Source: a virus. From it: a stretch of 42,680 nucleotides of DNA. The translations under genes were made by a program, and so were the position numbers. Positions within the stretch are counted from its first letter, which is position 1. Every line of letters begins with the position of its first letter. Under the pieces are notes generated by a model. That model was not told the origin of the DNA and ran no database searches. It saw only the letters and a program-made list of their open reading frames with translations. Positions 8,774 through 42,098 of this stretch are shown here, piece after piece. The stretch is from IMG/VR virus record IMGVR_UViG_3300021479_000037, positions 1 to 42,680 of that record; one strand, written 5' to 3'.

Positions 8774-11700
8774 TTAACTTTCCTGCATAAAGGAGCCGTA
8801 AATCGAAAATGTCAGAATTTCGTCCTGAACTCTACTTATTCCGAAGTTAATGGAACACTGTAAATGACGGCATACCGCCGCTTGGTCTGGAAGTTCAGAG
8901 AAATAGAACCGCTGCCCACGTATCGACCGGCTTTCCGGCTGATTCGGTGGATCAGTGACCCAGTTCGTCAATGGTTCAAAAGGACCATTAAAGAATGGCA
9001 AGGCTTCATCAATAATCACGGAAATGCTTAATGGCGTTCCCGTTCTTACTGAATCAGTCGTTACAAACCCTACGACAGCTACCTGACCCGGTTGGGCAAG
9101 GTTTATGCTTCCAAGTACTGCATTGGCGAAGTAACTACTGGTGTTGTCCTGGAAGAAGTTACTGTCTCTTTTCAGGAGCACGCCTACGCCGCTTTGCACA
9201 GGAAGTGAGGTTGTGTCAGTGCCTGCGAAGGTCACGGAACCATTTCTTGCCAAGAGCCGTCCATTGACTGTCGTTCCGGTATTGACTGAAATACTTGTCA
9301 GTGCCAAAACTGTAGCATTGAGTATGTTCGTAGTGCCAATCGTGGCAGAGCTGCCCACCACAAAGACCACATCTGCTGCTGCCGCACCGCCCACTAAGGC
9401 AATTGTGGAGCCTGCACCTGTGATAAATGTACTTGAACATTGGAACACGTACCTGCCATTGCCATTGAGTGTCAACGTCAAGCCGCCCGTAATATGGAAG
9501 GTTCCCGATGACTCAGAATATGTTCCTGGAGTCAAGGTAACACTTCCTAACTCTGACACAATTGGTGTGGGAGTTAGGGCAGACAATTGACCGAAAAGTG
9601 TAGTAGCATACGCTTGATCCGCTACCGCTATAGGGTCATCTATATGTGTAGCACCATTCACCACTGGTCCACCTGTTACGGAGGAGCCTGGAGATAGGAC
9701 TAAATCGCCATTGATAGTTGTCAATGGTACACTTGTGATCGTTGTTCCGGCCATTACAGCAACATTGGTAAGAACTCCGAAAGTAATGAAGTTTGAGCCT
9801 GCACCGCTCGAAAGTGTGCCAGGACCAAGGAGCAACTTATGCACTCCAGGGAGGACTTCAAGACTCTGAACAGCCTTAACGCCGCCGACGATGGTGGCAA
9901 AAGGTGACCAAGTCAGTCCAGTTTCAGGTGCTGGAGTCGGCATTAGCCGAAACCAACCAAACTTACCGTCTGAGACGTACCAAGCCTGATCTTCACCATC
10001 AACATGCCACGTAACGTATACGTTTGCAGCATTCCAACTCGTGCCAGGATTTCCGTCATTTTTGCGGAATTGGTCACCAATTGGTAAGCCGACGTAAGAA
10101 ACACCAGCTCCGGGATCGAGGATCACGAACTGATTGTCTGTCGTATAGAACCCAATCAAAGCGCCGTTGACATCCAAAGCATTGTAGCTTAGTAGTCCAA
10201 TACCCTTCAGCAAGATTACTGCCTTAGGGATGGTCACGCCATTCGATGTATTCACCAGAAAGATGTCCGACACAGAGAATACAATGACTCCCTGGTTCGT
10301 TGGTACTATCCTCTTAAGCAAACTAGGAAATGTATCAAAGTTTAGAGGTGCAACACCATTCACACCATTGCCTGCTGGCGTATCCGGACCACTTGTCCAA
10401 TAACCTACGTTTCCAACGCTGAAGAAGATCCGACCCAAGTGATAGGTCAGATTGATTGCACCACCTGCTGGTGGAGTGTTCTCTCCAGCGATAGGTGCTG
10501 AAATCAAGTTATTCAAACCAGTATCAGGGGTCGTATCTGTGAATCCCTTCGTCAAATAATCGTGTAATGTTTCAGTATAAATCGAATTGCCCGTCCCAGG
10601 TATTAGGAAGGGTAATGAGCCGCCATCCACAGTACGGAATATGGCAACATAATCGGCTTGTGGGTCAATATTCGCAGGAATAAGTCCACTTCCTGGAGGA
10701 ATTACCACACCTGTTGATCCTACAAAGTTCCCAGTAGAAACTGATAAGGGACTAGCATTAGAGACGGTGTTATCCAATGTATTGACTAGAGCAATAGCAT
10801 ATTGAAACCCGCCAGCTAGTGCACTAATCGTGCCCGGTGGTGGTGCAGCCCCTGGACCTTGATTGATCCAAATTAGATTAGGATTATCAAGTGTAAGGCT
10901 ATTAAGTGTAGTTGAAAATGTAGGTCTAGTCGTTCCTGTGAATCCTGCCTCAAAAGGTGCTTCCGTATTTCCATTAGGATCTAAGATCGTTGAATTTGGC
11001 AGTGTGAAGCCCGTATTTGCACGCCATTGCATATCTGTAATGGGTCCAAAGTTATTCCAAACAAAGTTTCCTGCCGATTCAGTCACATTAGCTCTTGCAG
11101 GAGCAAGAGAAGTAGTATATGCAGGGAATGCTGGCGAAGTTGCACCACTCTCAGCCGGACCTGTGATTAATGTATTTCCATTCGCCGTCACCACAAAGGT
11201 TCTGCCCTGGTGGAACCAATAAGCCCAATCGAACTCGACTGCATAGGAACCCGCTGTCGGAAAGTTCACCACAAAGACATCTGTGGAGAGCCCGCCATCA
11301 TTCAATGGGAGGTTCGTTCCGCCCATAATCGGATAGGAGTTCAAGGCTGTATGTGTAAGATGGTTAGGATCATTATGAGGACCAGACACCAGTGTCGCAC
11401 CACCATTAACACCCCAGACCATGCCGTCATGATGCTTAACAGTAATCGTGTACTGTCCAGCTACTGGAACATTCCAATTAGTCGTGAAGGCTATCTGGAA
11501 ATCTTTGGTAATGCCACTTGAGTTCGGACCTGGAAATGGTGATGTAGTTCCAGTGACCGCACCAGATGCATCAAAAGTATTCCATAATATCGCACTTGCT
11601 GGACTATCTGCTTGAATCGGGTCATCCACGCTAAGTGAAGTTCCCGAAGCCGTTGCCCTAATAGCGAATGGAGATGAACTGCTCGTCTGTTGAAATTGAC

Positions 11701-13057
11701 CGCCTGCGGGACCTCCACCACTTGGCCATTGAGTTGCCGCAACTGGGGCATTCAATGTGATCTGTGAGAAAGGCGCTAACTGGAAGATATCTCCACCAGC
11801 TTCAATGATCTGACCTGCCGGGTAAACTGTGTGTGCTGCCCAAGTTAATGAATCTACTTGAGCGACTGTCCAAGTTACCCCGCCATCGGTTGTGGTGTTG
11901 CCTAATATCGTTGCCCAAGTTGGTTGCGCTGGCCCAGATTTGCCAGCAGTAGTAACCTTTTGAACATTACCGTTGATATCTATGATAATTCCCAAAGGAG
12001 AAAAGAACGTGTTGGGAACCCAAGCGCCTGCTGCACCCGTTGAAACTATAGGTGTATTCGGTGGTGCAACTATTCCCCAATTCTCCACAGAAGGGAGTCC
12101 AGGATGTGTTGCATCAGGTGTTCCACGATTAGTCCATAGTACCGTTCCATCAATCGTCAAGCCGCCTTGGAAGTTATTGCCTGCATTCGGCGTAACTGTG
12201 CTCCAAGTAGGTTGCGTAGCACCAGAAGTTGGCGTACCACCTGTAGCGGTTGCATTTATTGTCTCTGGATTAGAAAATGTACCAGGAATATTGAAGGTAA
12301 ATGTAAAGGTATTTGTGGTAACTGTAAGAATTGTAACGGTTTGGCCCGATAATTGGGAAGTAACTATGGTGCTAGGAAATGTGACAGTAAGTCCTGGGGT
12401 CAACAACCCGGTAAGGGTGGTACTAGAAGTTGCCGTGATTGTGCCACCAACTCCTGAGATATTCGTAATAGGAAATATCGCTGCTGTCAACTGCTGGATG
12501 TTAGTATTAGGGTCAATAAGGAAGGTAGTCAAAAACGGAGTAATAGGTGTGTTCCACTTGGCAAACGCCATCCAAAGTGTAAGAGACTGTAACCACTTCT
12601 TATTATCAAGACCATTGCCAAAATACAAAGTGTTGCCTACAGACTGCATATACGTCTGACCTGCACCTGGAGTCTTGGTCCAAACGAGCGTCTTCACACC
12701 GGCAAATAGCGAGTATAGTGCATTACTCTGATCAACCATCACATCGATCTGCTCAGTAGAGGTATTGAATAGTCGAAATTCTTCAAAACGGTCTACATTG
12801 GCATAGGTATTACTATCAAATACTGAATTTCCTGGCCTACGAGCAAGAGTCAATCGATTCGTAATCTCAACATTAGAGCCTGCAATAAGCGCATCACCTG
12901 AAGCACCATAATATTTCTCTGCCTGACGAGAAGTCGCCGCATCGCGCAATGGACTGCGGTTGGTCCATAAGCCCGATGACCAGCGACCCGTATAGATAGG
13001 TGCGAATCTAGTGGGTTTTTGAGCCTGAGCCCCTGAAATTGACAATTGATTTGGCAA
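8774..13057 (-). CDS. Tail tubular protein B-like giant tail protein with inserted DUF3494 (ice-binding fold) domain
   Basis: A 1427-residue protein. The N-terminus (GRWSSGLWTNRSPLRD, then VDRFEEFRLF and beta-propeller-like strands) and the C-terminus (FANAVLGSINLAQPGQVAVV, SISVIIDEA) resemble large tail tubular/nozzle proteins of T7-like phages. Three modules are inserted. Residues ~280-420 hold repeats of the 'G..QPTW.....TTDGG..WT' type. Residues ~460-650 hold a PA14-like beta domain (NWNVPVAGQYTITVKHHDG). Residues ~1083-1286 hold a DUF3494 domain, the fold of type 1 ice-binding proteins (NGDLVLSPGSSVTGGP, TLTPGTYSESSG, VVGSSATIGT, TTVNGRLLARNG). It likely forms the tail nozzle, with surface modules for adhesion. 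It follows the A-like proteins, as in T7. Confidence 0.8.
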   Translation of the reverse strand: MPNQLSISGAQAQKPTRFAPIYTGRWSSGLWTNRSPLRDAATSRQAEKYYGASGDALIAGSNVEITNRLTLARRPGNSVFDSNTYANVDRFEEFRLFNTSTEQIDVMVDQSNALYSLFAGVKTLVWTKTPGAGQTYMQSVGNTLYFGNGLDNKKWLQSLTLWMAFAKWNTPITPFLTTFLIDPNTNIQQLTAAIFPITNISGVGGTITATSSTTLTGLLTPGLTVTFPSTIVTSQLSGQTVTILTVTTNTFTFTFNIPGTFSNPETINATATGGTPTSGATQPTWSTVTPNAGNNFQGGLTIDGTVLWTNRGTPDATHPGLPSVENWGIVAPPNTPIVSTGAAGAWVPNTFFSPLGIIIDINGNVQKVTTAGKSGPAQPTWATILGNTTTDGGVTWTVAQVDSLTWAAHTVYPAGQIIEAGGDIFQLAPFSQITLNAPVAATQWPSGGGPAGGQFQQTSSSSPFAIRATASGTSLSVDDPIQADSPASAILWNTFDASGAVTGTTSPFPGPNSSGITKDFQIAFTTNWNVPVAGQYTITVKHHDGMVWGVNGGATLVSGPHNDPNHLTHTALNSYPIMGGTNLPLNDGGLSTDVFVVNFPTAGSYAVEFDWAYWFHQGRTFVVTANGNTLITGPAESGATSPAFPAYTTSLAPARANVTESAGNFVWNNFGPITDMQWRANTGFTLPNSTILDPNGNTEAPFEAGFTGTTRPTFSTTLNSLTLDNPNLIWINQGPGAAPPPGTISALAGGFQYAIALVNTLDNTVSNASPLSVSTGNFVGSTGVVIPPGSGLIPANIDPQADYVAIFRTVDGGSLPFLIPGTGNSIYTETLHDYLTKGFTDTTPDTGLNNLISAPIAGENTPPAGGAINLTYHLGRIFFSVGNVGYWTSGPDTPAGNGVNGVAPLNFDTFPSLLKRIVPTNQGVIVFSVSDIFLVNTSNGVTIPKAVILLKGIGLLSYNALDVNGALIGFYTTDNQFVILDPGAGVSYVGLPIGDQFRKNDGNPGTSWNAANVYVTWHVDGEDQAWYVSDGKFGWFRLMPTPAPETGLTWSPFATIVGGVKAVQSLEVLPGVHKLLLGPGTLSSGAGSNFITFGVLTNVAVMAGTTITSVPLTTINGDLVLSPGSSVTGGPVVNGATHIDDPIAVADQAYATTLFGQLSALTPTPIVSELGSVTLTPGTYSESSGTFHITGGLTLTLNGNGRYVFQCSSTFITGAGSTIALVGGAAAADVVFVVGSSATIGTTNILNATVLALTSISVNTGTTVNGRLLARNGSVTFAGTDTTSLPVQSGVGVLLKRDSNFFQDNTSSYFANAVLGSINLAQPGQVAVVGFVTTDSVRTGTPLSISVIIDEALPFFNGPFEPLTNWVTDPPNQPESRSIRGQRFYFSELPDQAAVCRHLQCSINFGISRVQDEILTFSIYGSFMQES

Positions 13058-19040: not shown

Positions 19041-20063
19041 TTACGGGAGGGTCAGCACGATCAAATTGCCAGTCAACGTAACCGCAGTCTGAGCCAAGCA
19101 ACGACCGTGAACCGTAACGGTATCACCAACATTGATAGCGGCTCCTGCAAGTATGCTACCGTTGAATACGTTCGTAGCTCCAAGAGTCATCGACGTGCCC
19201 ATTACCCAATAGACGTTCTTCGCCAGTGCTCCACCAGTCAGAATAACCTGACAAGTAGCGCCCGTGGTCATCGCCGTGGTCGCCTGGAAGACCCAAACGT
19301 CAGTAGCGGAACCGTTTAGCGTAAGATTCGTCGAAGTCGTGATGCTAAAAGTTGAAGTAGATCGATAGATTCCAGGACCAAGAGTCAATCCACCAAGATT
19401 CTTATCGCCAGCATAAGTGGTTCCAGGAGTCCGAGTGCTGAGATCTGCGTAAGCTGCCAAGAAAGCAGTGATAGCAGTTTCAGTCGGCGAATCATCGAGA
19501 CTGTGAAGAACGAACGGAGAATCCACAACCGTCGGAGGAAAGTTATTGATTGCAGTGCGACTACCAACGTCAGACGCAACGTGAGCAGCATTGCCAGAAG
19601 TGGCGGCGCTACCAGTCGAAGCAGCGATTCCTAGCATACCGAAGTTACCAAGGCCAGTTAGTACTGGACCCGGAACGGGAGTATTCACGGTAACGGTAGA
19701 AAGAACCGTAGCATATATTTTGTCCACAAGAACGCTATTCGTTCCATCAAATGTTGCATACTGGACTTCGATTTCAGCCTGTCCAGTGGACACGGCGGTG
19801 ATGATCCCACTCGTAGCGCCGACCGTGGCGATAGAAGGTGAACGTGAAACATATTGGGCAATATTTGAATTACCAGAAGTGAAGGCCGATCCTGCAACAT
19901 CCTGTATAAGTGGGGTAACAGTGGTCGTGGTCATCCCGACAACACCAAGTGTTACGGTGTATTCATTGCCCGTAATCTGCGTAATGCCAGTGCCGCTCAT
20001 ACGAACTCGTGCAGCGGTCCCAATACCAGTCGTAGGATTGGGCTGAGGAGTGGGGTTTGCCAT
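19041..20063 (-). CDS. Head decoration protein: Ig-like domain plus DUF3494 ice-binding-fold domain
   Basis: A 340-residue protein with TTTAAGGAGCC before the ATG. Residues ~1-125 are a BIG2-like Ig domain (SPSIATVGATSGIITAVSTG) paralogous to the next gene. Residues ~135-340 are a DUF3494 domain: LGNFGMLGIAASTGSAATSG at its start, LGGLTLGPGIYRSTSTFSIT, NVYWVMGTSMTLGATNVFNG and VTVHGRCLAQTAVTL follow the family's beta-helix pattern. Ice binding cannot be claimed, because the fold also serves as an adhesin. Its position three genes after the capsid gene suggests a capsid-surface fibre. Confidence 0.82.
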   Translation of the reverse strand: MANPTPQPNPTTGIGTAARVRMSGTGITQITGNEYTVTLGVVGMTTTTVTPLIQDVAGSAFTSGNSNIAQYVSRSPSIATVGATSGIITAVSTGQAEIEVQYATFDGTNSVLVDKIYATVLSTVTVNTPVPGPVLTGLGNFGMLGIAASTGSAATSGNAAHVASDVGSRTAINNFPPTVVDSPFVLHSLDDSPTETAITAFLAAYADLSTRTPGTTYAGDKNLGGLTLGPGIYRSTSTFSITTSTNLTLNGSATDVWVFQATTAMTTGATCQVILTGGALAKNVYWVMGTSMTLGATNVFNGSILAGAAINVGDTVTVHGRCLAQTAVTLTGNLIVLTLP

Positions 20064-32072: not shown

Positions 32073-32558
32073 TTACATACGAGAGTAATTGCTTTTAACG
32101 TAGTGGAGCATGCCTGTATTCGGGTTATACTTAGGATACAGTTTCTTGAACTGTGCGATCCCATGATGAGAACCCATTGGCAGGTCTTTAATGTGTCTAA
32201 GGTATAGTAGTACTATACTTGGTGAGCGGCTTATACCTCTATTGCAGGCTACCAGAACTCGGTCACCAGCATCCAAACGTTCCTGGATGAACTTCAGTGC
32301 AGGATCAATCACTTCATCTCTAATGTAGTGTGGCTCATCTGCATCTATGAGATTCAATGCCATATGGTTCTCAGTGGGGCGTGCGTAGAAGTAATCCTTA
32401 TCCTTGGGTGCTGAGCGGCCAGTGTAGCCTACTACATCTCTATGACCGCCCTCACAATCCCTACACGCACGGCAGAATGACCAACCCGGTTTGTCTTTAC
32501 GCTTATCGTAATCTTCATCGTCGCCGATGTATAGCCGGTTGATTATCTCTGTTGCCAT
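32073..32558 (-). CDS. Dual-specificity protein phosphatase
   Basis: A 161-residue protein. The catalytic signature CNRGISRS at 105-112 gives the C(X)5R loop of Cys-based phosphatases (Cys 105, Arg 111), with a likely general-acid Asp in LIDADEPHY (~70-77). The His that usually precedes the catalytic Cys is Ala here (VACNRG). The N-terminal insertion has three Cys and a His (CRACRDCEGGH, ~29-39) that could bind zinc and is unusual. AAAAGGACAA precedes the ATG. It may act on host or virion phosphoproteins. Confidence 0.82.
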   Translation of the reverse strand: MATEIINRLYIGDDEDYDKRKDKPGWSFCRACRDCEGGHRDVVGYTGRSAPKDKDYFYARPTENHMALNLIDADEPHYIRDEVIDPALKFIQERLDAGDRVLVACNRGISRSPSIVLLYLRHIKDLPMGSHHGIAQFKKLYPKYNPNTGMLHYVKSNYSRM

Positions 32559-33569: not shown

Positions 33570-33986
33570 CTATACGTAAACGATGCTGGTACAAAGACAA
33601 GAATTAGCTACCCAGAAGCGCACTCTGGTCTTGCGGTCATTGGTACTACAGATGCCCAATATACTATGACCGATAGCCAGCAGCGCCTTGTAATCCGATG
33701 GTGACGGTGCAGCATCCCAATTAGGATGTGAGTGGATGTCACCTACAATGTCCAAACCTAATCGTTCAGCCTTGTCCTTCACTCTTTGGTATTCTTCATC
33801 GTGCCATTGCACAGACGCCGTGGTCTGCTCCGCATAACTTTTGGTGTACTCCATACTATTTACTGTAACCGTTCCACCAACTACTGATCCGATTAGCAAT
33901 GCCTCTATCTCTAGGTCCGTGTTCCTAGCCTTGGATCTGAAGTAGTTTAATTGATTCCTTTTTATCTGAACGATTATCTCTAGCAT
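33570..33986 (-). CDS. JAB/MPN (JAMM) metalloprotease
   Basis: A 138-residue single-domain protein starting MLEIIVQIKRNQLNYF, with GGAAGGGTGCC before the ATG. The JAMM motif is complete: HSHPNWDAAPSPSD at 85-98 fits HxHx7Sx2D, with an upstream Glu in DLEIEALLIG (~24-33). JAMM enzymes remove ubiquitin-like tags. In many phages the domain is fused to NlpC in tail tip proteins; here it stands alone and far from the tail genes. Countering host ubiquitin-like defence conjugation, or processing a virion protein, are both possible. Confidence 0.82.
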   Translation of the reverse strand: MLEIIVQIKRNQLNYFRSKARNTDLEIEALLIGSVVGGTVTVNSMEYTKSYAEQTTASVQWHDEEYQRVKDKAERLGLDIVGDIHSHPNWDAAPSPSDYKALLAIGHSILGICSTNDRKTRVRFWVANSCLCTSIVYV

Positions 33987-34050
33987 GGCACCCTTCCGCT
34001 TTACTAGACAAATAAAAAATGACGCACCCAATTAAGGATACGCCATCTTC

Positions 34051-34820: not shown

Positions 34821-34988
34821 TTAAATCATTGAAGAGAAGCTTAAATTCTCACTATGACTATATGATATTCTCCAACCTTGAATATAACTCGCCATGGTTC
34901 CGTGTCCGCTGCTGCCGTTGCCCGAAAACGAGCCTATATAACGGTCGCTATAGGAATCAGCGTATGGGTTGGTTCTCGCCAGGACCAT
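34821..34988 (-). CDS. M-V-L small Ser/Tyr-rich array protein, minus branch 4
   Basis: A 55-residue protein starting MVLARTNPYADSYSDRYIGS, with 13 Ser, 7 Tyr and many Gly. It is the last member of the leftward chain. Its ATG overlaps the stop of the member before (TAATG), and GGAGG inside that member's last codons is its ribosome site. Plus-strand readings over this stretch (34829-35059, 34878-35090) are antisense shadows. Function unknown. Confidence 0.75.
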   Translation of the reverse strand: MVLARTNPYADSYSDRYIGSFSGNGSSGHGTMASYIQGWRISYSHSENLSFSSMI

Positions 34989-35134
34989 TACCAACCTCCA
35001 CAGTTACTGAAGTCGGCCTGCCTATACGTCGAACTTGCGCTGCTAACCCAACCTTCTGACCATGAACTAAACGGCCTGGAAGGTCTATAGGGGTTATACT
35101 GTAATGTCTTCCAAATGCGAGCCATTAGAACCAT
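34988..35134 (-). CDS. M-V-L small Ser/Tyr-rich array protein, minus branch 3
   Basis: A 48-residue protein starting MVLMARIWKTLQYNPYRPSR and ending DFSNCGGW, the same Cys-Gly-Gly-Trp end as the members on either side of the polymerase on the plus strand. Its last 16 bases (TGTGGAGGTTGGTAAT) are identical to those of the member at 38982-39140. GGGAGG precedes the start. A second ATG three bases upstream (35137) overlaps the previous stop and is an alternative. Confidence 0.8.
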   Translation of the reverse strand: MVLMARIWKTLQYNPYRPSRPFSSWSEGWVSSASSTYRQADFSNCGGW

Positions 35135-35218
35135 CATAGCCTCCCACATCGACTGGAATTGCAGTTATGGGACACTGACACACAGCCCGACGTAAGTTGA
35201 AGGCTGAAGAATGACCAT
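35134..35218 (-). pseudogene. Frameshifted array member, minus branch 2
   Basis: It begins ATGGTCATTCTT (MVIL), overlapping the stop of member 1, but hits a stop after 17 codons. A different frame continues to an array-like end (NCNSSRCGRL, then TGA overlapping the next ATG). The distance is 85 bases, one more than a multiple of three, so a single-base change explains the break. It is either decayed or read by frameshifting. Confidence 0.55.
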
Positions 35219-35361
35219 CACAGCCCTCCACAGAAACTTTTGTAATGGGCTCTACCGCAAGCTGACCCTGCATAATAGGTACTTTGGCTACAGTACCATC
35301 CTTCATTTACGGATCTTTTCCATAGAGAACTGCGACTAATTCCTATTACTGATATGACCAT
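35218..35361 (-). CDS. M-V-I small Ser/Tyr-rich array protein, minus branch 1 (leaderless)
   Basis: A 47-residue protein, MVISVIGISRSSLWKRSVNE..., ending KSFCGGL. It has 9 Ser, 4 Tyr and 3 Cys. The -10 box of the leftward promoter ends 6 bases before the ATG, so transcription should start on the A of the ATG and the message is leaderless. A 70-codon reading in another frame (35094-35306) overlaps it, but has no comparable start signal and crosses three array members. Confidence 0.78.
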   Translation of the reverse strand: MVISVIGISRSSLWKRSVNEGWYCSQSTYYAGSACGRAHYKSFCGGL

Positions 35362-35366
35362 ATCCT

Positions 35367-35383
35367 TATATTAACAAAGTTAA
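35367..35383. promoter_or_regulatory. Palindromic operator candidate over the leftward -10
   Basis: TATTAAC-aaa-GTTAATA is a perfect 7-3-7 palindrome at about 35369-35385 overlapping the leftward -10 box. A dimeric repressor here would shut the leftward early promoter and could influence the rightward one ~50 bases away. Confidence 0.6.
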
Positions 35384-35396
35384 TAAGGTCTGTCAA
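35368..35396 (-). promoter_or_regulatory. Host-type early promoter, leftward
   Basis: On the minus strand TTGACA (35396-35391), 17-base spacer, TAATAT (35373-35368). Perfect -35 and a good -10. It faces away from the rightward promoter and drives the minus branch of the small-gene array with no leader. Confidence 0.8.
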
Positions 35397-35419: not shown

Positions 35420-35448
35420 TTGACATTCACAAAAACTCATGTTATTCT
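35420..35448 (+). promoter_or_regulatory. Host-type early promoter, rightward
   Basis: TTGACA (35420-35425), 17-base spacer, TATTCT (35443-35448) with TG one base before it. A strong sigma70-type promoter. The transcript begins near 35455 and covers the structured RNA region, then probably the polymerase and array. Confidence 0.82.
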
Positions 35449-35454
35449 AGAAGT

Positions 35455-36250
35455 GTAGTCAAGAAAAAGCCTCTGTAGCTGGTCAGATCCAGTAATACAG
35501 GGGAGCCCGAAAGGGCTAAATGTACAAGGGCTTTAAGGCTTGGGTCGGGATAAATACTGACTAAGACAAGTCATCACACGCTGGAGAGCGAACCCTTTAC
35601 ACGTACTGAGTACGTTGACCTTAGGTGGTCATGTCTCCAAACCAAAAGCAGTTGCTGCATACGGGTAATGCTTGTGCAACCAACTGAACACAGTTCCGCC
35701 ACACGGGTTGAACGAGCCTTCGGGCTTCTTCAAAAGTGCTGGAAAAAGAATAAATCGGAAACTCAAACTGGAACGGTGTAAAAGCCGGGAACCTAGTAGC
35801 GTGACTGTAGTAAGAGCGGATAATTAGAATCCGTGGGAACCGATCCAAAAGAGACGCCTTCAGCAAGCGATGGCCGCGTGAAAGCCGGGGCCAGTGGTAT
35901 AAGTTACACAATCGCAATAGAGAGCCAGACAAGTGTTACCCGTTTGGTGCGGAGTTGAACTCCAAGAAACATCTCGTAGCGTGCAAAAGCTTTGGAACAC
36001 ACACTGCTTAGCTAAACTTGTACTGGGACGTTGAAATCCACGTAAATCGGCCTAGGACATAACAGATCTATAGGCTAGTTTACAATCTAACGATAAGGCA
36101 TTACCGCTTCTACCATCATCGTGCAATAAGTACATGGTGTGTCGATCTGAATACAGAGCAGGGGATAAGACCTAAGAAAAGGGCAACCACTGAGAGACTG
36201 TATATCCAGAGAGAAACGGTACCCTATTGCCCTGACGGTTCTTTACAGAC
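35455..36250 (+). ncRNA. Candidate large structured RNA (~800 nt)
   Basis: No plausible gene lies here, yet it follows a strong promoter and folds densely. AAGCC (35467) pairs with GGCTT (35541), enclosing CCTCTGTA/TACAGGGG (35470/35503) and AGCCC-GAAA-GGGCT (35504-35517). TGGAGA/TCTCCA (35582/35639) encloses ACGTAC-TGA-GTACGT and TGACC/GGTCA. CAGTTG/CAACTG (35649-35686) follows, then AGCC-TTCG-GGCT (35715-35726), CGGAT/ATCCG (35817-35833), TGGCC/GGCCA (35870-35893), GGAGT/ACTCC (35951-35963) and AGGGCAA/TTGCCCT (36180/36233). GNRA and UUCG loops and junctions are typical of functional RNA. Size and phage context recall GOLLD and ROOL RNAs; identity is not shown. Confidence 0.65.
35601..35615. 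repeat. Dispersed palindrome, copy 2
   Basis: ACGTACTGAGTACGT, within the structured RNA, where it forms a 6-bp hairpin. Same core as copies at 28412-28430 and 42225-42240. Confidence 0.55.
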
Positions 36251-36312: not shown

Positions 36313-36459
36313 ATGAACCTTACTACAAGACAGATACGAAGAATGCCATCAACACCTTGCAACTCCCATAATAGAGGCTATTACCGAAGTTGCTATACTA
36401 GTTATTGGTTTTTTAGTAAGAGTGATTCAAACTATTATAGTGCTTGTGGAGGTTGGTAA
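36313..36459 (+). CDS. M-N-L small Ser/Tyr-rich array protein, plus member 0
   Basis: A 48-residue protein starting MNLTTRQIRRMPSTPCNSHN and ending YYSACGGW, with 8 Ser, 6 Tyr and 3 Cys. It is the only plus-strand member before the polymerase. Its TAA is followed directly by the polymerase ATG, and its last codons (tgt gga ggt tgg) contain GGAGG, the polymerase ribosome binding site. This ties the array to expression of the replication gene. Confidence 0.78.
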   Translation: MNLTTRQIRRMPSTPCNSHNRGYYRSCYTSYWFFSKSDSNYYSACGGW

Positions 36460-38985
36460 ATGATTGAAGGCCAAGAGTTTAAACAGCTAATATTGAACCC
36501 ACCAAACAATGTAACACTGGTTGTGGATGGGAAGAGTCTTGGTCAGATGGCAAGTTTTCTTGACCGAGTTACGGACGTGGGCTTCGATATTGAAACGAAT
36601 GTAACCAACGACTTCTACTGGCGCGGAGTGCGTACCCTTCAATTCGGAAACAAGGATGAGCAGTATGTCGTGGACTTACTTGCGTTCGTGGATGGTAACG
36701 GGGAAGTATTAGCTAACAGTCAGGGTCATTATGGGAAAAACATGACACAGGGACTCAAGCTGGTGCTGGAAACTTGTGACTCGGTACTCCTTTCTAATCA
36801 ACACATTAAGCTAGGAATCAACCTCTCATTTGAAGCTACTCACATGTACTGGAACTTCGGCAGAAGGATCTACGGACTGTACGATGGTATGTTAGCAGAA
36901 CGCTGCATACGCGCAGGAGAGATAAGTCTAAAGAAGTACTCAGAGTTCTCCATGGAAACGCTTATGCAGAGGTACTTCGAGGTCCAGATCGATAAGGAAC
37001 TCCAGACATCGTTCGATCTTCACACGCCATTGACTCCTGAACAGATACAGTACGCAGCGTTGGATACGCGCCTACCTTTTGCCATACGCACTGCACAATT
37101 GCGCCTAGCGCAGAAGGACGGACTGTTAGAAGTCATCCAGTTGGAAAATGATGCTATCGGAGCGTTCGTGGATATGCACGTTCATGGCCAGAACCTTAAC
37201 GTTGCCAAGTGGACTGCCAGAACGGATGCTAAGAAAGCAGAATTGGTAGAAGTGATCGCCGCAATGGACAAATATTTCATTCCAATTGTGGGAGATAAAA
37301 CGAAAGACATTGTAACTAAGGAACAATCCGATGAACTTCATGCGCAGTGGAAGGCGCTTATGATTGTTCCAGCTAATGAGGTTAAGTTAAAGGGCGAGGT
37401 ACGTAGACAACAAGATCCTGAACGTAAAGCCTTGTTACGTAAAGCATTAGACATGCTAGAGACAGCCCGTAAGGAAGAGAAAGAGAACATAAAAGGGATT
37501 CAATCGGTTATTAGCAAGCGACTGACATTCTTACGTAAGCTACTGCCGACATGTGAAGGTCAGGCACTAATTAACTATTCATCTACGGATCAGTTGTTGA
37601 CCGCATTGAAACAAATGTCAGGACTGAGCAAGCTGAAAGACACGAACGATGACTCCTTGGCAGATTTCGCTAAGATCCCTGTTATCAAGTTGTTACGAGA
37701 CTTCCGTTCGATTAATAAGGAAGTGGACACCTATGGCATGACGTGGGCTACTACCTGGATGACTGGACCGAAGAAGGAAGAAGGTTTCCTGCACCCAGGC
37801 GACGGTAGACTCCACAGTGAATTCAATCAGTACGAAGCCGAAACAGGCCGAACGAGCAGCAGCAAGCCGAATGCTCAGAACATTCCCAAGGGTAAAGAGA
37901 TTCGGGAGTGTTTTGAAGCGGATGGTCCGAATCCTGATATACAGATTTCCATATGCTGTGAATCTGAGACGACTTTTGACACGGTTATGAACGAAGGTCC
38001 GAGATGTTTGACTTGCAGGCAACTTTGTCAGACTAAGGCAGAGGATTACGTATTGATTACGTGTGACATGTCAGGCGCTGAACTTCGCATCCTGGCAGAA
38101 TTGGCTAATGACAAAACCTGGATAGAAGCGTTCCAAAGGAATGAGGATCTACACTCTATCTCAACTGCTATTCTATACGCCCAAGAATGGCCTATGTTGG
38201 CCACGGACGCCTGCGGGTACTACGCACTACAGCCTAATGGTGAAATCAAGAAAGGCAAGTGCGGCAAGGGTTGTCCGCAGCATGAAGACCTACGCAACGG
38301 CACCAAGTCCTGTACCTTCCTGTTAGTGAACGGTGGCGGTCCCAATAAGCTGGCCGTGGATACGGGTAAGACTGTAAACGAGTGTAAAGACATCATGGAG
38401 AGGCACCGCAGGGCATTTCCTAACATCTGGAACTACCTAGAAGACGCAGGCAAGCGTGCGAAGATCAAGAAAGAAGCCAGAGACTTCTTCGGACGCCGTA
38501 GGATCTTTCCTAATCCGAACTGGGAGACAGCCAAGAAGTATGCGACGGAAGCTGTTCAGGAATCGGCCATTAGTAAGTTCATAGAAGAGAACGAAAGGAA
38601 GCCAAAGAAGGACGAGAAGATAGAACTGCTAAAGGTACAGCCTTCGGATGGTCAGATCCAGAAGGAATACCGAGGACTTCTAGGAAGCATTGAGCGCCAG
38701 GGTAAGAATCATGAGATTCAATCGGGTAACGTCTCAATTATCAAGATAGCCGTAGGTTCAGGATTCGATAAAGATGGTAAACCGTTTCTTTTCCATGTGT
38801 TACCTAAGTATAAGGCACAGTTTAGGAGCATGATACATGATGAACTAGTGATCCACGTTCCTACGCAATACGCGGAAGAAGTTGCAAAGCATATTCAGGA
38901 TTGCTTTAAGAGAGCCGCTGCTGTTAAGATGAAGCGAGTAGAGATGACTTCAGAGTACAACGTATCGAAAGTTTGGAGCAAATGA
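36460..38985 (+). CDS. Family A DNA polymerase with 3'-5' exonuclease
   Basis: An 841-residue replicative polymerase. The exonuclease domain has FDIET (Asp 43, Glu 45) and YAALD (198-202). The polymerase domain has motif A DMSGAELRILAELAND (Asp 536), motif B RNGTKSCTF (Arg 612, Lys 616, Phe 620) followed by NGGGP, and motif C HDE (793-795). No 5' nuclease domain is present, as in T7 gp5. Two Cys clusters are unusual: Cys 499, 500, 516, 519, 523 just before motif A, and Cys 584, 601, 605, 618 around motif B; these look like zinc-binding insertions. It is preceded and followed (ATGA overlap) by array members. Confidence 0.93.
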   Translation: MIEGQEFKQLILNPPNNVTLVVDGKSLGQMASFLDRVTDVGFDIETNVTNDFYWRGVRTLQFGNKDEQYVVDLLAFVDGNGEVLANSQGHYGKNMTQGLKLVLETCDSVLLSNQHIKLGINLSFEATHMYWNFGRRIYGLYDGMLAERCIRAGEISLKKYSEFSMETLMQRYFEVQIDKELQTSFDLHTPLTPEQIQYAALDTRLPFAIRTAQLRLAQKDGLLEVIQLENDAIGAFVDMHVHGQNLNVAKWTARTDAKKAELVEVIAAMDKYFIPIVGDKTKDIVTKEQSDELHAQWKALMIVPANEVKLKGEVRRQQDPERKALLRKALDMLETARKEEKENIKGIQSVISKRLTFLRKLLPTCEGQALINYSSTDQLLTALKQMSGLSKLKDTNDDSLADFAKIPVIKLLRDFRSINKEVDTYGMTWATTWMTGPKKEEGFLHPGDGRLHSEFNQYEAETGRTSSSKPNAQNIPKGKEIRECFEADGPNPDIQISICCESETTFDTVMNEGPRCLTCRQLCQTKAEDYVLITCDMSGAELRILAELANDKTWIEAFQRNEDLHSISTAILYAQEWPMLATDACGYYALQPNGEIKKGKCGKGCPQHEDLRNGTKSCTFLLVNGGGPNKLAVDTGKTVNECKDIMERHRRAFPNIWNYLEDAGKRAKIKKEARDFFGRRRIFPNPNWETAKKYATEAVQESAISKFIEENERKPKKDEKIELLKVQPSDGQIQKEYRGLLGSIERQGKNHEIQSGNVSIIKIAVGSGFDKDGKPFLFHVLPKYKAQFRSMIHDELVIHVPTQYAEEVAKHIQDCFKRAAAVKMKRVEMTSEYNVSKVWSK

Positions 38986-39140
38986 TAGTAGCATTTTTCT
39001 GGACTAGGGCGAGGTTGCTCAAATACTCCACGAGCGGGGAGCTGTGCAGTTTCGGGTCATGCTCTAATGGAAGGGGTGACAGCACTCATGAGAAGTATTC
39101 TCGTTCCTATTTTGCGTTCTCGACTTGTGGAGGTTGGTAA
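38982..39140 (+). CDS. M-I-V small Ser-rich array protein, plus member 1
   Basis: A 52-residue protein starting MIVAFFWTRARLLKYSTSGE and ending FAFSTCGGW, with 9 Ser and 3 Cys. Its ATG overlaps the polymerase stop (ATGA). The final CGGW is encoded by the same bases (TGTGGAGGTTGGTAA) as in member 0 and minus member 3, and supplies GGAGG for the next start. Confidence 0.78.
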   Translation: MIVAFFWTRARLLKYSTSGELCSFGSCSNGRGDSTHEKYSRSYFAFSTCGGW

Positions 39141-39265
39141 TGAATCTAGTGACTGCCTTTCGTATATGGGATCTGGGAAGTTCTTACCCAAGACTTGTTA
39201 AAAGCTGGTGCGGAGATTTTCCTATGTCAAAATCTTTTGGTGTACGTTATAGTGCCCCCTGGTGA
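39140..39265 (+). CDS. M-N-L small array protein, plus member 2
   Basis: A 41-residue protein starting MNLVTAFRIWDLGSSYPRLV and ending VRYSAPW, with 6 Ser. The shortest intact member. Its ATG shares a base with the previous stop (TAATG), seven bases after GGAGG. The next gene has its own promoter, so this ends the polymerase-linked group. Confidence 0.7.
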   Translation: MNLVTAFRIWDLGSSYPRLVKSWCGDFPMSKSFGVRYSAPW

Positions 39266-39271
39266 TTCCGC

Positions 39272-39300
39272 TTGACAATCGGCCTGTGATCTGGTAATCT
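39272..39300 (+). promoter_or_regulatory. Host-type promoter inside the array
   Basis: TTGACA (39272-39277), 17-base spacer, TAATCT (39295-39300) with TG one base before. It lies in the only sizeable gap of this stretch and leads to a GAGGAG ribosome site and the membrane protein gene. Confidence 0.7.
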
Positions 39301-39322
39301 ATAGATAGTTGAGGAGATAACT

Positions 39323-39484
39323 ATGTTTCTATTTGCATTGTCGGGTTTGGCGCTAACACTATTGGTACTCGGATGGGACGCGATTGATGTCTCTACGGCT
39401 GTGCCTGCGGCCTTGATTGTTTACGGTATAATAGGATTTGCGTTGCTTATTGTGGCATGCTGCACACTGGTCAGATACCTGTGA
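39323..39484 (+). CDS. Small two-helix membrane protein
   Basis: A 53-residue protein, MFLFALSGLALTLLVLGWDA..., with two membrane segments (residues ~2-18 and ~29-49) joined by a short polar loop. It is unlike the array proteins in composition. GAGGAG lies 7 bases before the ATG and a promoter precedes it. Array member 3 starts within its last codon (GTGA). It could be a holin-like or membrane-anchoring partner for the array products. Confidence 0.72.
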   Translation: MFLFALSGLALTLLVLGWDAIDVSTAVPAALIVYGIIGFALLIVACCTLVRYL

Positions 39485-39630
39485 TCCTAACCGCTGCATA
39501 TCGATACTATTGGGCATCTATGGAGTTAATGGGTGATTGGATGAGCCGTAGTAGCCATCAGTTTACTAGCAGTATTATGTATTCCCGCTCTTGTAGTACT
39601 GAATTTTTTAGTAAGAGTAGTGGAAGATGA
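39481..39630 (+). CDS. M-I-L small Ser-rich array protein, plus member 3
   Basis: A 49-residue protein from a GTG (GTGATCCTAACC, read M-I-L-T), with 12 Ser, 9 of them AGT/AGC. It ends EFFSKSSGR; the FFSKS segment also occurs in member 0. It overlaps the membrane gene by four bases and the next member by four (ATGA). Confidence 0.75.
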   Translation: MILTAAYRYYWASMELMGDWMSRSSHQFTSSIMYSRSCSTEFFSKSSGR

Positions 39631-39803
39631 TCTTAAACATCCCATACCGACAGTGGTACATTGATCGCAGACCGTCATGGTTTATGTGGAGTCGCACTAA
39701 TTCAGAGTTTACTAGTTATATTAGAGACTCTCATGACAGCGGTCGTTTCGCAAGATCGGTCTGTCATACGGCCTATTACTTTAGCGAATGCGGTGGAAGA
39801 TGA
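39627..39803 (+). CDS. M-I-L small aromatic-rich array protein, plus member 4
   Basis: A 58-residue protein starting MILNIPYRQWYIDRRPSWFM and ending YYFSECGGR, with 8 Ser, 5 Tyr, 3 Trp and 2 Cys. The CGGR end is a variant of CGGW. Overlaps at both ends are ATGA; the final GGTGGAAG can act as the ribosome site of member 5. Confidence 0.78.
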   Translation: MILNIPYRQWYIDRRPSWFMWSRTNSEFTSYIRDSHDSGRFARSVCHTAYYFSECGGR

Positions 39804-39946
39804 TACTAGTAGCTCCTTTTCGGATGTGGATTCGTGATCCAAATATTAGATGGGGTCTTAGCAATTGGACAAGATGGAGCACTTGTGGAAGTTATAAATC
39901 TGTGAACTATCCCAATCTGTTTAGTTACAGTAGTGGGCACCGATAA
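39800..39946 (+). CDS. M-I-L small Trp/Ser-rich array protein, plus member 5
   Basis: A 48-residue protein starting MILVAPFRMWIRDPNIRWGL and ending LFSYSSGHR, with 4 Trp and 7 Ser. It is followed by a 90-base gap with two hairpins, so it ends a translationally coupled group (members 3-5). Confidence 0.75.
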   Translation: MILVAPFRMWIRDPNIRWGLSNWTRWSTCGSYKSVNYPNLFSYSSGHR

Positions 39947-39948
39947 TC

Positions 39949-39984
39949 CCAGGTCTAAATTCCTGGACGCCTCTAAAACGGCGT
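39949..39984 (+). other. Twin hairpins in the array
   Basis: CCAGG-tctaaatt-CCTGG is followed at once by ACGCC-tctaaaac-GGCGT. Both loops share TCTAAA. They lie in the gap between members 5 and 6, where the chain of overlapping genes is broken. A processing or partial termination site is likely. No T-run follows. Confidence 0.5.
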
Positions 39985-40035
39985 ATACGGTACGTATCTG
40001 ATGATTCGCCGGAATTGGAGATAGTTGTGAGGTCT

Positions 40036-40167
40036 ATGATCCTAAGCATCCAAATGCGCAGAGATAGTTACATTTACTGCTTTTCCAATGGCTATGCGCT
40101 GAGCTATAGTACGTTCAATAAGAGCTACAGCAACACATGGCCACTAAGCTATTGCGGAGGACTATGA
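40036..40167 (+). CDS. M-I-L small Tyr/Ser-rich array protein, plus member 6
   Basis: A 43-residue protein starting MILSIQMRRDSYIYCFSNGY and ending WPLSYCGGL, with 8 Ser and 6 Tyr. TGAGGT lies before the ATG. Its end (tgc gga gga cta tga) holds GGAGG four bases before the next ATG. The CGGL end matches minus member 1. Confidence 0.76.
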   Translation: MILSIQMRRDSYIYCFSNGYALSYSTFNKSYSNTWPLSYCGGL

Positions 40168-40334
40168 TACTAAAGAACTGGATGAGGCACGATTATCCGA
40201 GTAGTTGCGGCGAGGATTACACGGGACGGTCATGTAGACATTCTTATAGTAGCTTTGCATGGAGCAGTATGAGTCAGTACCAAACCGCTGGCTATAACGG
40301 AGATCAATGGCTGAGTTACTGCGGTAGAGAGTAA
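40164..40334 (+). CDS. M-I-L small Ser/Tyr-rich array protein, plus member 7
   Basis: A 56-residue protein starting MILKNWMRHDYPSSCGEDYT and ending WLSYCGRE, with 10 Ser, 5 Tyr and 3 Cys. The in-frame ATG at 40137 lies inside member 6 and lacks a ribosome site; 40164 overlaps the stop of member 6 (ATGA) after GGAGG. Confidence 0.78.
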   Translation: MILKNWMRHDYPSSCGEDYTGRSCRHSYSSFAWSSMSQYQTAGYNGDQWLSYCGRE

Positions 40335-40344
40335 GAGAGTAAAT

Positions 40345-40497
40345 ATGATACTATATACATTTGCGGCATGGCCAAGTAAGAGTTGCTTTAAGGTCTGTAG
40401 TCTTACTGGAGATGGCGGATATGCCTTTAGTTTCAGCCACCAGCATATTATGAGCAGAAGTTCCAACTACCGCGAGAGTATGAGTGGTGTCGTGTGA
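40345..40497 (+). CDS. M-I-L small array protein, plus member 8
   Basis: A 50-residue protein starting MILYTFAAWPSKSCFKVCSL, with 10 Ser and 2 Cys. Unusually it starts 10 bases after the previous stop and has only a weak AG-rich site (AGAGAGT) before it. Its stop overlaps the GTG of member 9. Confidence 0.72.
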   Translation: MILYTFAAWPSKSCFKVCSLTGDGGYAFSFSHQHIMSRSSNYRESMSGVV

Positions 40498-40670
40498 TAG
40501 TCATGCGCTTCCAGAACTTCCGTAGATGGAGCCGAAGTGCCATGAGTCTGTATTCCTACAGTCCCTGTCGGTCAAGCTGGTCATCGACCCTTATATTCAG
40601 TAAGAACGTAGATTGGGCGGCGAGCAGAAGCAGTAATATGTACTCTAGCATTTCAGGAGATGTCAAGTGA
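40494..40670 (+). CDS. M-I-V very Ser-rich array protein, plus member 9
   Basis: A 58-residue protein from a GTG (GTGATAGTC), with 16 Ser (28%), the highest in the array, 10 of them AGY codons, plus 3 Trp and 3 Tyr. It ends SSISGDVK. GTGA overlaps join it to both neighbours. An in-frame ATG at 40503 is a less likely start. Confidence 0.74.
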   Translation: MIVMRFQNFRRWSRSAMSLYSYSPCRSSWSSTLIFSKNVDWAASRSSNMYSSISGDVK

Positions 40671-40840
40671 TACTATTAAGATACAGCTCATTTTATTGGC
40701 TAGTACCACGTGACTCCTGGGAGTATTATTTTGACTTAACTAGCCGACATTTAGGCTATCTAAATGGTGCTAGTAGTGGCTTCGAGAACAGTTGGACACT
40801 GGGCCATTTCAGGAGCAATAGTGGCAAAGAAGGCTTTTGA
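40667..40840 (+). CDS. M-I-L array protein, plus member 10
   Basis: A 57-residue protein from a GTG (GTGATACTA), starting MILLRYSSFYWLVPRDSWEY and ending FRSNSGKEGF, with 9 Ser, 5 Tyr and 3 Trp. GGAGATGTCAA in the end of member 9 serves as its ribosome site. Its stop and the next ATG share bases (TGATG). Confidence 0.75.
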   Translation: MILLRYSSFYWLVPRDSWEYYFDLTSRHLGYLNGASSGFENSWTLGHFRSNSGKEGF

Positions 40841-41025
40841 TGATTCTGTCATGGACACCGTGCCCCTATGGGCAGTATAGTCACGCAACCGACTCACGCG
40901 GAAAAGGCTGGTGGAGGAGTAACTCCTGTGGCAATCGTAAGAGTAACGCCGGGTTTAGCGGCGGATGGTTTAGTCATAGTAGTGACTTCTCGGGCAGTGT
41001 GGGATTCGTTATAAGGACGTTCTAA
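40840..41025 (+). CDS. M-I-L array protein, plus member 11
   Basis: A 61-residue protein starting MILSWTPCPYGQYSHATDSR and ending GSVGFVIRTF, with 12 Ser, 9 Gly and 4 Trp. CPYG near residue 8 and the GF(V) end are shared with member 12, the only pair in the array with evident sequence likeness, which suggests a recent duplication. It starts in the stop of member 10 and its own stop overlaps the next ATG (TAATG). Confidence 0.8.
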   Translation: MILSWTPCPYGQYSHATDSRGKGWWRSNSCGNRKSNAGFSGGWFSHSSDFSGSVGFVIRTF

Positions 41026-41210
41026 TGATTCTAACTAGAAGACAATGTCCTTATGGCACGGTGAGCGTTTGTGGAGAACACGCTAGCGGTCCGGCTTGCT
41101 ATCTTAGTTGCAGTGGGTATTATCATAGAAGTTACATAGGTCTTGGTTGGCAAGTGGGTATGTACAGCACCAGTAACTATATGTTCAGCAGCCGTGGGTT
41201 TGTTAAGTAG
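41025..41210 (+). CDS. M-I-L array protein, plus member 12
   Basis: A 61-residue protein starting MILTRRQCPYGTVSVCGEHA and ending FSSRGFVK, with 9 Ser (all AGT/AGC), 7 Tyr and 4 Cys. It shares CPYG and the GFV end with member 11. AAGGACG in the end of member 11 is its ribosome site. Confidence 0.8.
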   Translation: MILTRRQCPYGTVSVCGEHASGPACYLSCSGYYHRSYIGLGWQVGMYSTSNYMFSSRGFVK

Positions 41211-41223
41211 GAGCTAACTATAT

Positions 41224-41382
41224 ATGAACCTGATTCCGATAACGATTAACTTTGTCATGCAGTCTAGAACCTATAAGTACTATATTACTGGTTTGAGTAA
41301 ATCCGCAGGATTTCGCAATGCCACCGGGATGGCTAGCTTTTCAGCAGGTCTATACACAAGTACGAACTGGCTGAGTTTCTAA
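41224..41382 (+). CDS. M-N-L array protein, plus member 13
   Basis: A 52-residue protein starting MNLIPITINFVMQSRTYKYY and ending TNWLSF, with 7 Ser and 4 Tyr. It has its own AGGAGCT site eight bases before the ATG. From here on members are separated by 10-30 bases and no longer overlap. Confidence 0.74.
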   Translation: MNLIPITINFVMQSRTYKYYITGLSKSAGFRNATGMASFSAGLYTSTNWLSF

Positions 41383-41392
41383 TGGAGGCACT

Positions 41393-41545
41393 ATGATTCT
41401 AATAAACCAGTACGTTCGATGGCTCTGCCAGGATTATATGGAATTCAGTAGATCTAGCGAATGGACCGCAAGTGACCTTTCCCATATTTATAGTACATCT
41501 TGGAGTGACGGATGCATAGTTAGTCGTGGCTTTACCAGATACTAA
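41393..41545 (+). CDS. M-I-L array protein, plus member 14
   Basis: A 50-residue protein starting MILINQYVRWLCQDYMEFSR and ending IVSRGFTRY, with 9 Ser and 3 Trp. GGAGG lies 5 bases before the ATG. The RGF-T-R-Y end resembles members 12 (RGFVK) and 16 (GFSTKY). An antisense reading over this stretch (41399-41653) is a shadow. Confidence 0.76.
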   Translation: MILINQYVRWLCQDYMEFSRSSEWTASDLSHIYSTSWSDGCIVSRGFTRY

Positions 41546-41562
41546 GGCTGAGGAGATCTCTA

Positions 41563-41721
41563 ATGATTCTAATGAATATGTTTTCCAGATTCCTTGCCTC
41601 TTCGTCAAGTACATTTTTAAGTTCAAGGATTGACTCAGAGTGTACAAGCGCATGCGCCGGTATGCATGTAGCGTTCAGTTCTAGGTATTACCGTAGCTAC
41701 CAAGATATTAATAGATGGTAA
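41563..41721 (+). CDS. M-I-L array protein, plus member 15
   Basis: A 52-residue protein starting MILMNMFSRFLASSSSTFLS and ending YQDINRW, with 12 Ser including a run of four. GAGGAGATC lies 7 bases before the ATG. The first nine bases ATGATTCTA are identical to members 12, 14 and 16. Confidence 0.74.
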   Translation: MILMNMFSRFLASSSSTFLSSRIDSECTSACAGMHVAFSSRYYRSYQDINRW

Positions 41722-41750
41722 AGAAAGGTAAGGGCTTGTAAGGAGTTCTA

Positions 41751-41903
41751 ATGATTCTAATAAATAGGTTCACACATCATTTCATCCGTCAGAACTTTTG
41801 TGGGCTATCGAGTGGGATGTGCTTCAGTGAAGGTAGTCCTTACTGGGAAGGTAGCCGGTCTTCTCGCTCACTTATCAGTCTTGGCTTTAGTACCAAGTAC
41901 TAA
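41751..41903 (+). CDS. M-I-L array protein, plus member 16 (last)
   Basis: A 50-residue protein starting MILINRFTHHFIRQNFCGLS and ending LGFSTKY, with 10 Ser. AAGGAG lies 5 bases before the ATG, and the string GGAGTTCTAATGATTCTAA resembles those before neighbours. After it no further member is intact; an ATGATACTT start at 41944 ends after 7 codons and may be a relic. Confidence 0.76.
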   Translation: MILINRFTHHFIRQNFCGLSSGMCFSEGSPYWEGSRSSRSLISLGFSTKY

Positions 41904-42098
41904 CTCCCTGTACCGTCACCAAGCTCCACTATAAACCCTGCCTATGATACTTCATATATTCCTATAGCCCTACCTATAAGAACCCTCCAGAAGACACAAA
42001 TCCCTTCCAAAGAACTGCCTTGTTCATTAATTGCCTACGTTCATGCCACATGTACATCCGCCTAAACTGTACAAGACCCCTCACAATAGTATAAATTT

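Follow-up and report, generated by a model that had tools for sequence, protein, structure and literature searches.

The DNA analyzed here, called the window below, is a virus record of 42,680 bases (IMG/VR IMGVR_UViG_3300021479_000037), with late genes leftward and a DNA polymerase gene and an array of very small open reading frames (ORFs) rightward. A reading made from the sequence alone had described a head-to-tail chain of such ORFs at 38982-41903 on the plus strand. This chain is real and consists of 16 ORFs of 41-61 residues plus a 53-residue membrane ORF with two predicted helices. Most junctions are overlaps of 4 nucleotides (ATGA or GTGA) or 1 nucleotide (TAATG), and the remaining ones are gaps, mostly of 10-30 nucleotides, although two are wider, at 57 and 89 nucleotides. 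The interval was confirmed, but the family is not confined to it, since one further member lies ahead of the polymerase gene and the minus strand carries another three (Table 1). There are thus 20 intact members, m0-m16 on the plus strand and r1-r3 on the minus strand. They make up a previously undescribed family built on an eight-residue repeat (octad), which is known from this one contig.

Table 1. Members of the small-ORF family and the features that lie among them, in order along the window
Feature	Coordinates	Strand	Description
r3	34821..34988	-	55 residues, MVLART.., TAATG overlap with r2; held-out octad z 5.3
r2	34988..35134	-	48 residues, MVLMARIW.., strong Shine-Dalgarno, ends NCGGW
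Probable frameshifted member	35130..35218	-	MVILQPSTYVG.. in one frame, ..SVSHNCNSSRCGRL* in the next; TGA overlaps following ATG
r1	35218..35361	-	47 residues, M-V-I start, ends FCGGL; held-out octad z 2.6
Leftward promoter, sigma-70-like	35368..35396	-	TTGACA-17-TAATAT, TG before -10; consensus match only
Rightward promoter, sigma-70-like	35420..35448	+	TTGACA-17-TATTCT, TG before -10; consensus match only
m0	36313..36459	+	48 residues, ends ACGGW; adjoins polymerase start, contains polymerase Shine-Dalgarno; held-out octad z 2.6
DNA polymerase, family A	36460..38985	+	Sits within the array
m1	38982..39140	+	52 residues, ATGA overlap with polymerase
m2	39140..39265	+	41 residues, TAATG overlap
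Membrane protein, not a family member	39323..39484	+	53 residues, two hydrophobic segments, M-F-L start, other composition
m3	39481..39630	+	49 residues, GTG start
m4	39627..39803	+	58 residues
m5	39800..39946	+	48 residues
m6	40036..40167	+	43 residues
m7	40164..40334	+	56 residues
m8	40345..40497	+	50 residues; octads SFSHQHIM SRSSNYRE SMSGVV
m9	40494..40670	+	58 residues, GTG start
m10	40667..40840	+	57 residues, GTG start
m11	40840..41025	+	61 residues; CPYG common to m11 and m12, codons differ at synonymous sites
m12	41025..41210	+	61 residues
m13	41224..41382	+	52 residues
m14	41393..41545	+	50 residues
m15	41563..41721	+	52 residues
m16	41751..41903	+	50 residues, final intact member

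The octad was found in all 20 members and can be written S-[YRFWK]-[ST]-[SG]-G-[YWF]-x-x. The full profile is S(62%)-[Y/R/F/W/K]-[S/T/C/I]-[S/G/N]-[G]-[Y/W/F]-[I/M/L/V/R]-[F/R/K], and the clearest examples are in r3 (SYSDRYIG SFSGNGS SGHGTMA SYIQGWRI SYSHSENL SFSSMI). The plan of a member is M-I/V/N-L, then five to seven degenerate octads, then an S-x-[CS]-G-G-like end; many members terminate in S-x-[CS]-G-G-[WLR]. Serine pairs at a lag of eight residues numbered 62, compared to 30.3 in plain shuffles (z 6.7) and 31.7 in dipeptide-preserving shuffles (standard deviation 4.6, maximum 47), none of which reached 62 in 1000. Every one of the 20 members had at least one such pair. With a period of 8, a circular hidden Markov model gained 165 log units, compared to 106.6 (standard deviation 8.4) in shuffles, and this was the only one of seven periods tested that clearly beat the shuffles, with 5, 6, 7, 9, 10 and 12 at or near noise. 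As a control, 20 small proteins of the related phage Tunturi_3 showed no period of 8 (108 versus 105, standard deviation 7). When each member was held out in turn, the octad profile built from the others gave a combined z of 8.8 and was positive for 19 of 20, and a model built from the plus-strand members alone recognized r3 (z 4.6) and r1 (z 2.3). Serine stood at positions -6, -14, -22 and -30 from the C-terminus in 34 of 80 cases compared to 15.9 by chance, the phase having been picked after seeing the data. The sequence-only reading had taken the bodies of these proteins, members 11 and 12 excepted, to be beyond alignment. Identity by column beyond residue 3 is indeed only 3-12%, yet there is order in the bodies, which share the octad and the C-terminal end. 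Conservation restricted to the start is therefore wrong as a description, as the octad, the C-terminus and a tightly held composition are conserved as well.

Recent tandem duplication of DNA was rejected as the source of the octad: identity of non-serine codons at a lag of 24 nucleotides was at background (0.27), so the octad is a constraint at the protein level and not a young DNA repeat. AGT and AGC make up 65% of the serine codons in the array compared to 32-35% elsewhere in the genome, which may point to descent of the octad from an AGT/AGC-coded ancestor. An N-terminal amphipathic helix was also considered and rejected, with the hydrophobic moment at chance.

The array is protein-coding. 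ORFs of 38-65 residues beginning M-[INF]-[LV] occur 17 times in it, the membrane ORF counted, against a mean of 0.17 and a maximum of 3 in 300 dinucleotide-preserving shuffles, and ORFs cover 92% of the array compared to 26% in the shuffles. Serine codons are strongly biased by frame, with AGT at 71/13/3 and AGC at 38/2/3 (together 109:15:6, the reading frame given first), and such a bias is not what a motif in RNA or DNA would produce. Stops are commoner, not rarer, in the two remaining forward frames, which contain 62 and 93. With serine left out, codon usage of the array correlated with that of the polymerase gene at r 0.70 and with that of the late genes at 0.80, while polymerase and late genes correlated at 0.73. 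The array is thus native to the phage. A recoded genetic code was tried and rejected, since reading TAG, TGA or TAA as sense opened no normal long gene. No tRNA or known RNA was found, and there was no Rfam match.

The shared start holds at the protein level. Over the 20 members, methionine is followed by I in 14, N in 3 and V in 3, and then by L in 17, V in 2 and I in 1. At the DNA level, the near-constant bases that had been proposed, ATGATNCTAA, matched exactly in just 6 of 16 members. About half of the starts have calculated Shine-Dalgarno duplex energies between -7 and -10 kcal/mol (random 17-mers: median -2.8, 5% tail -6.9), and a minority (m0, m3, m4 and r1) have a weak Shine-Dalgarno or none. 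Two promoter-like sites stand back to back and divergent, with the minus-strand members behind the leftward one. The first codon of r1 comes about 7 nucleotides after the leftward -10 box, so this gene is possibly leaderless. Early expression would fit the position of the array in the polymerase operon behind strong promoters, as judged from their consensus matches.

The roughly 600 nucleotides between the divergent promoters and m0 (35456-36055, plus strand) contain many strong hairpins, with a folding z of -2.8 (-1.8 for the other strand). This segment had no Rfam match and no blastn relative, and it is a candidate large phage RNA that would be transcribed ahead of m0 and the polymerase gene.

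The members form one paralogous family. The mean Smith-Waterman score of their cores exceeds that of shuffles (z 5.4), and, together with codon phase, translation signals, the octad profile and probable broken copies, this bears out the earlier proposal of an expanded and diversified family of microproteins. Their composition is also more uniform than expected: over eight residue classes, chi-squared per degree of freedom was 0.62 (P ~0.0002), compared to 1.09 in the control set, and four other groupings agreed. Serine accounts for 19-20% of residues, aromatic residues for 19% and acidic residues for 5%, arginine is far more frequent than lysine, and the spacing of the aromatic residues is more even than expected by chance (z -2.6). 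Net charge is positive in most members but small.

Traces of gene gain and loss are visible along the array. The junction TGTGGAGGTTGGTAA occurs three times, at m0/polymerase and m1/m2 on the plus strand and at r2/r3 on the minus strand, so junctions were copied across strands. Probable broken copies are the frameshifted one that separates r1 from r2 and short M-I-x remnants, located near 40000 and at 41943. The frameshifted and truncated copies, with the shared junctions, indicate birth-and-death evolution. No reverse transcriptase match (PF00078) that would indicate a diversity-generating retroelement was found in the window, which is part of a genome, and no near-identical long repeat pair was found around the array. 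An array of precursors of ribosomally synthesized and post-translationally modified peptides was also looked for; the conserved N-terminus is three residues only, where such precursors have a leader of tens of residues, and there was no modifying enzyme among the proteins scanned, which represent part of the genes of the window.

Relatives of the members were sought in collections, metagenomes not among them, that omit near-identical records. Searches against Pfam, PHROGs, NCBIfam and PADLOC gave nothing convincing, for known anti-phage or anti-defense proteins either, with single weak matches, the best at E 0.002 for one member, and there was no significant match in PDB. There was no real match in phage records using tblastn with three members and distant blastn with the array, and the concatenated members found nothing in IMG/VR. 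Neither the 45 IMG/VR loci of polymerase relatives nor the 36 loci of terminase relatives have the array. Viral contigs totaling about 4.4 Mb, mostly related ones, contained no cluster of more than three such ORFs; they included the greater part of about 14 long records of related viruses and much of Tunturi_3 and Tunturi_4. Patterns for arrays of the start motif, which are insensitive, were run over IMG/VR and GTDB genomes, and among the matches listed were only chance ones, tandem repeats and apparent CRISPR arrays; the repeats of the latter, judged by sequence, contain GGATGAT-like strings. A hidden Markov model of the serine octad was run over 44,649 open segments and ranked the window members at the top, but it had been trained on them, and the other high matches look like unrelated repeats. 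A cluster of seven matches in contig L382 was rejected as a GTG microsatellite. On the minus strand of another viral contig, L073, there are many small repeat ORFs (MILYGTLYVILYVILY.., MESVYDSVWDSV..) that are apparently unrelated to the array.

The virus that carries the array appears, from its relatives, to be a soil phage like Tunturi_3 and akin to viruses of Acidobacteriota. Its family A polymerase (Pfam PF00476, E 1.5e-48) shares 43% identity, over 99% of its length, with the polymerase of Tunturiibacter phage Tunturi_3 (PP885686), and the terminases are 49% identical. Tunturi_3 is podovirus-like and infects an acidobacterium of the Finnish tundra (PMC11924767). Its length of 97.6 kb suggests that the window is a partial genome. 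Tunturi_3 and its IMG/VR relatives share homologous polymerases and terminases with the window, where dual-specificity phosphatase and JAB-type genes lie nearby, but none of them has the array, and ordinary genes follow their polymerase. The phosphatase-like gene (32073-32558, minus strand) and the JAB-like gene (33570-34031, minus strand) lie between the terminase and the array. Within the array, the membrane ORF has a weak resemblance to DUF2970 (E 0.003, below the cut-off). Two late-region proteins (8774-13057 and 19041-20063, both minus strand) contain DUF3494 Ice_binding domains (E 3e-32 and 3e-39), which is unusual in a phage. Near the right end of the contig (42385-42464, plus strand) are two direct copies of 37 nucleotides, 78% identical, TAGCACGTT..TTTGGCCCTTG.

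The interpretation that we favor, tentatively and with less than even confidence, is that the array encodes small beta-structured binders, diversified by birth and death, whose genes lie around the polymerase gene and are expressed early as a translationally coupled set. Polycistronic mRNAs would be made early in infection from the two divergent promoters, and translation would proceed by re-initiation or coupling at the overlapping stops and starts, for which the signals are present. Each product would form a small beta-structured repeat unit, with a serine/glycine scaffold and a binding face of aromatic residues and arginine; m12, modeled from its sequence alone and with low confidence, is a beta-meander. 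Duplication, with the common junction and start as its anchor, would generate new copies, and their face would then diversify. Because most of the serines are coded by AGT or AGC, many positions are one change away from Arg, Asn, Gly, Thr, Cys or Ile. The outcome could be a repertoire that binds host or nucleic-acid targets, and a function as host effectors is hypothesized here by analogy with host-takeover modules. The more specific proposal, that the set is a new protein-repeat architecture in which about 20 genes on a minimal serine/glycine octad scaffold, co-expressed with the polymerase, have their aromatic/arginine face diversified gene by gene through duplication and decay, is possible though rather doubtful. 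Several results weigh against the favored interpretation. No orthologue was found in the collections searched, and such a uniform composition is not an obvious prediction for proteins with independent targets. The AlphaFold2 models have low confidence (mean predicted local distance difference test scores of 54.5 and 58.5), so that disorder or folding that depends on assembly is possible. Individually, m1, m3, m7, m11 and m16 fit the octad weakly, and r2 was weak under the plus-strand-trained model (z 0.5).

The main rival explanation, unlikely in our estimate but ahead of the others below, is that the members are disordered or co-assemble into a condensate, fiber or cross-beta ribbon, through regularly spaced Tyr/Trp/Phe and arginine stickers between serine/glycine spacers. 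They would act jointly on nucleic acid or replication, and composition and spacing would matter rather than individual sequences. This could account for a composition more uniform than multinomial draws, its richness in serine, aromatic residues and arginine over lysine, the even aromatic spacing, the poor model confidence, the mostly positive members and the operon shared with DNA polymerase. However, a strict eight-residue register phased to the C-terminus exceeds what generic disorder needs, mere composition would not require twenty separate genes, and the net charge is small. Another explanation, which we consider improbable, is that the initiation region is what is conserved, as a shared RNA element (ATGATNCTA), with one regulator of the T4 RegA type or ribosomal coupling controlling the set and the proteins individually minor. 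Regulators of the T4 RegA type control the translation of early genes, and a single regulator of this kind could serve the many early genes here too, given how alike their initiation regions are. CTA supplies 12 of 17 third codons compared to 6 of 33 leucine codons in the bodies (Fisher P 0.0005), and the unrelated membrane gene likewise begins ATG-TTT-CTA. On the other hand, the isoleucine codons vary freely among ATA, ATC and ATT, and, in a difference from RegA-type control, the bodies are under constraint too; the constraint on octad and composition implies that the proteins matter.

The octad period and S-x-S spacing might also suggest mini-solenoids associated with ice, in which S-x-S ladders would form a two-octad coil of 16 residues like ice-nucleation octapeptides in a cold-soil phage that has two proteins with ice-binding domains. 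This is very improbable, since no PF00818 match was found in the window at E 10, the members are very aromatic and arginine-rich with no secretion signal seen, and they would be made with the polymerase and not with virion genes; the cold-soil origin itself is deduced from relatives only. Least credible is that these are not protein genes but an RNA or DNA feature, or a recoded region whose frames merely stay open. Relatives without the array and the odd composition would be compatible with this, but AGT and AGC fall strictly in frame, Shine-Dalgarno signals are present, Rfam gave no match and reassignment of the code fails, which largely refutes it.

If the favored interpretation is confirmed, the array would represent a new family of repeat proteins and a rare instance in which a phage has an in-genome repertoire of paralogous microproteins, in which start, composition and octad register are held while the sequence is free. 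Some 20 proteins form a compact set that can be synthesized to ask what selection holds in microproteins, and whether expansion of an array diversifies small phage effectors.

Known systems resemble the array in part. In RBM5, the OCRE domain forms a small antiparallel beta-sheet whose exposed tyrosines bind proline-rich peptides (PMC5127646). Like the members, it consists of about 50-60 residues of aromatic octamers, and the low-confidence m12 model is also beta. However, serine is the most constant residue in the array members, and PF17780 had no match in the window at E 10, with an artificial consensus alone giving E 1.8; the likeness would be one of structural analogy and not membership. 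The ice-nucleation octapeptide (PF00818) is likewise an eight-residue repeat with serine and tyrosine, but the members are rich in Trp, Arg and Phe and are separate proteins of 50 residues rather than one long solenoid. The host-takeover module of phage SPO1, with 24 early genes in the terminal redundancy (PMC10531801), serves as the model for the mode of action proposed here by analogy. Both are clusters of phage genes without recognizable relatives, and several of those of SPO1 were shown to block host functions. In contrast to the SPO1 products, which have not been described as a single family of paralogous repeat proteins, the proteins of this array share their start, composition and octad, and the polymerase gene lies among them.

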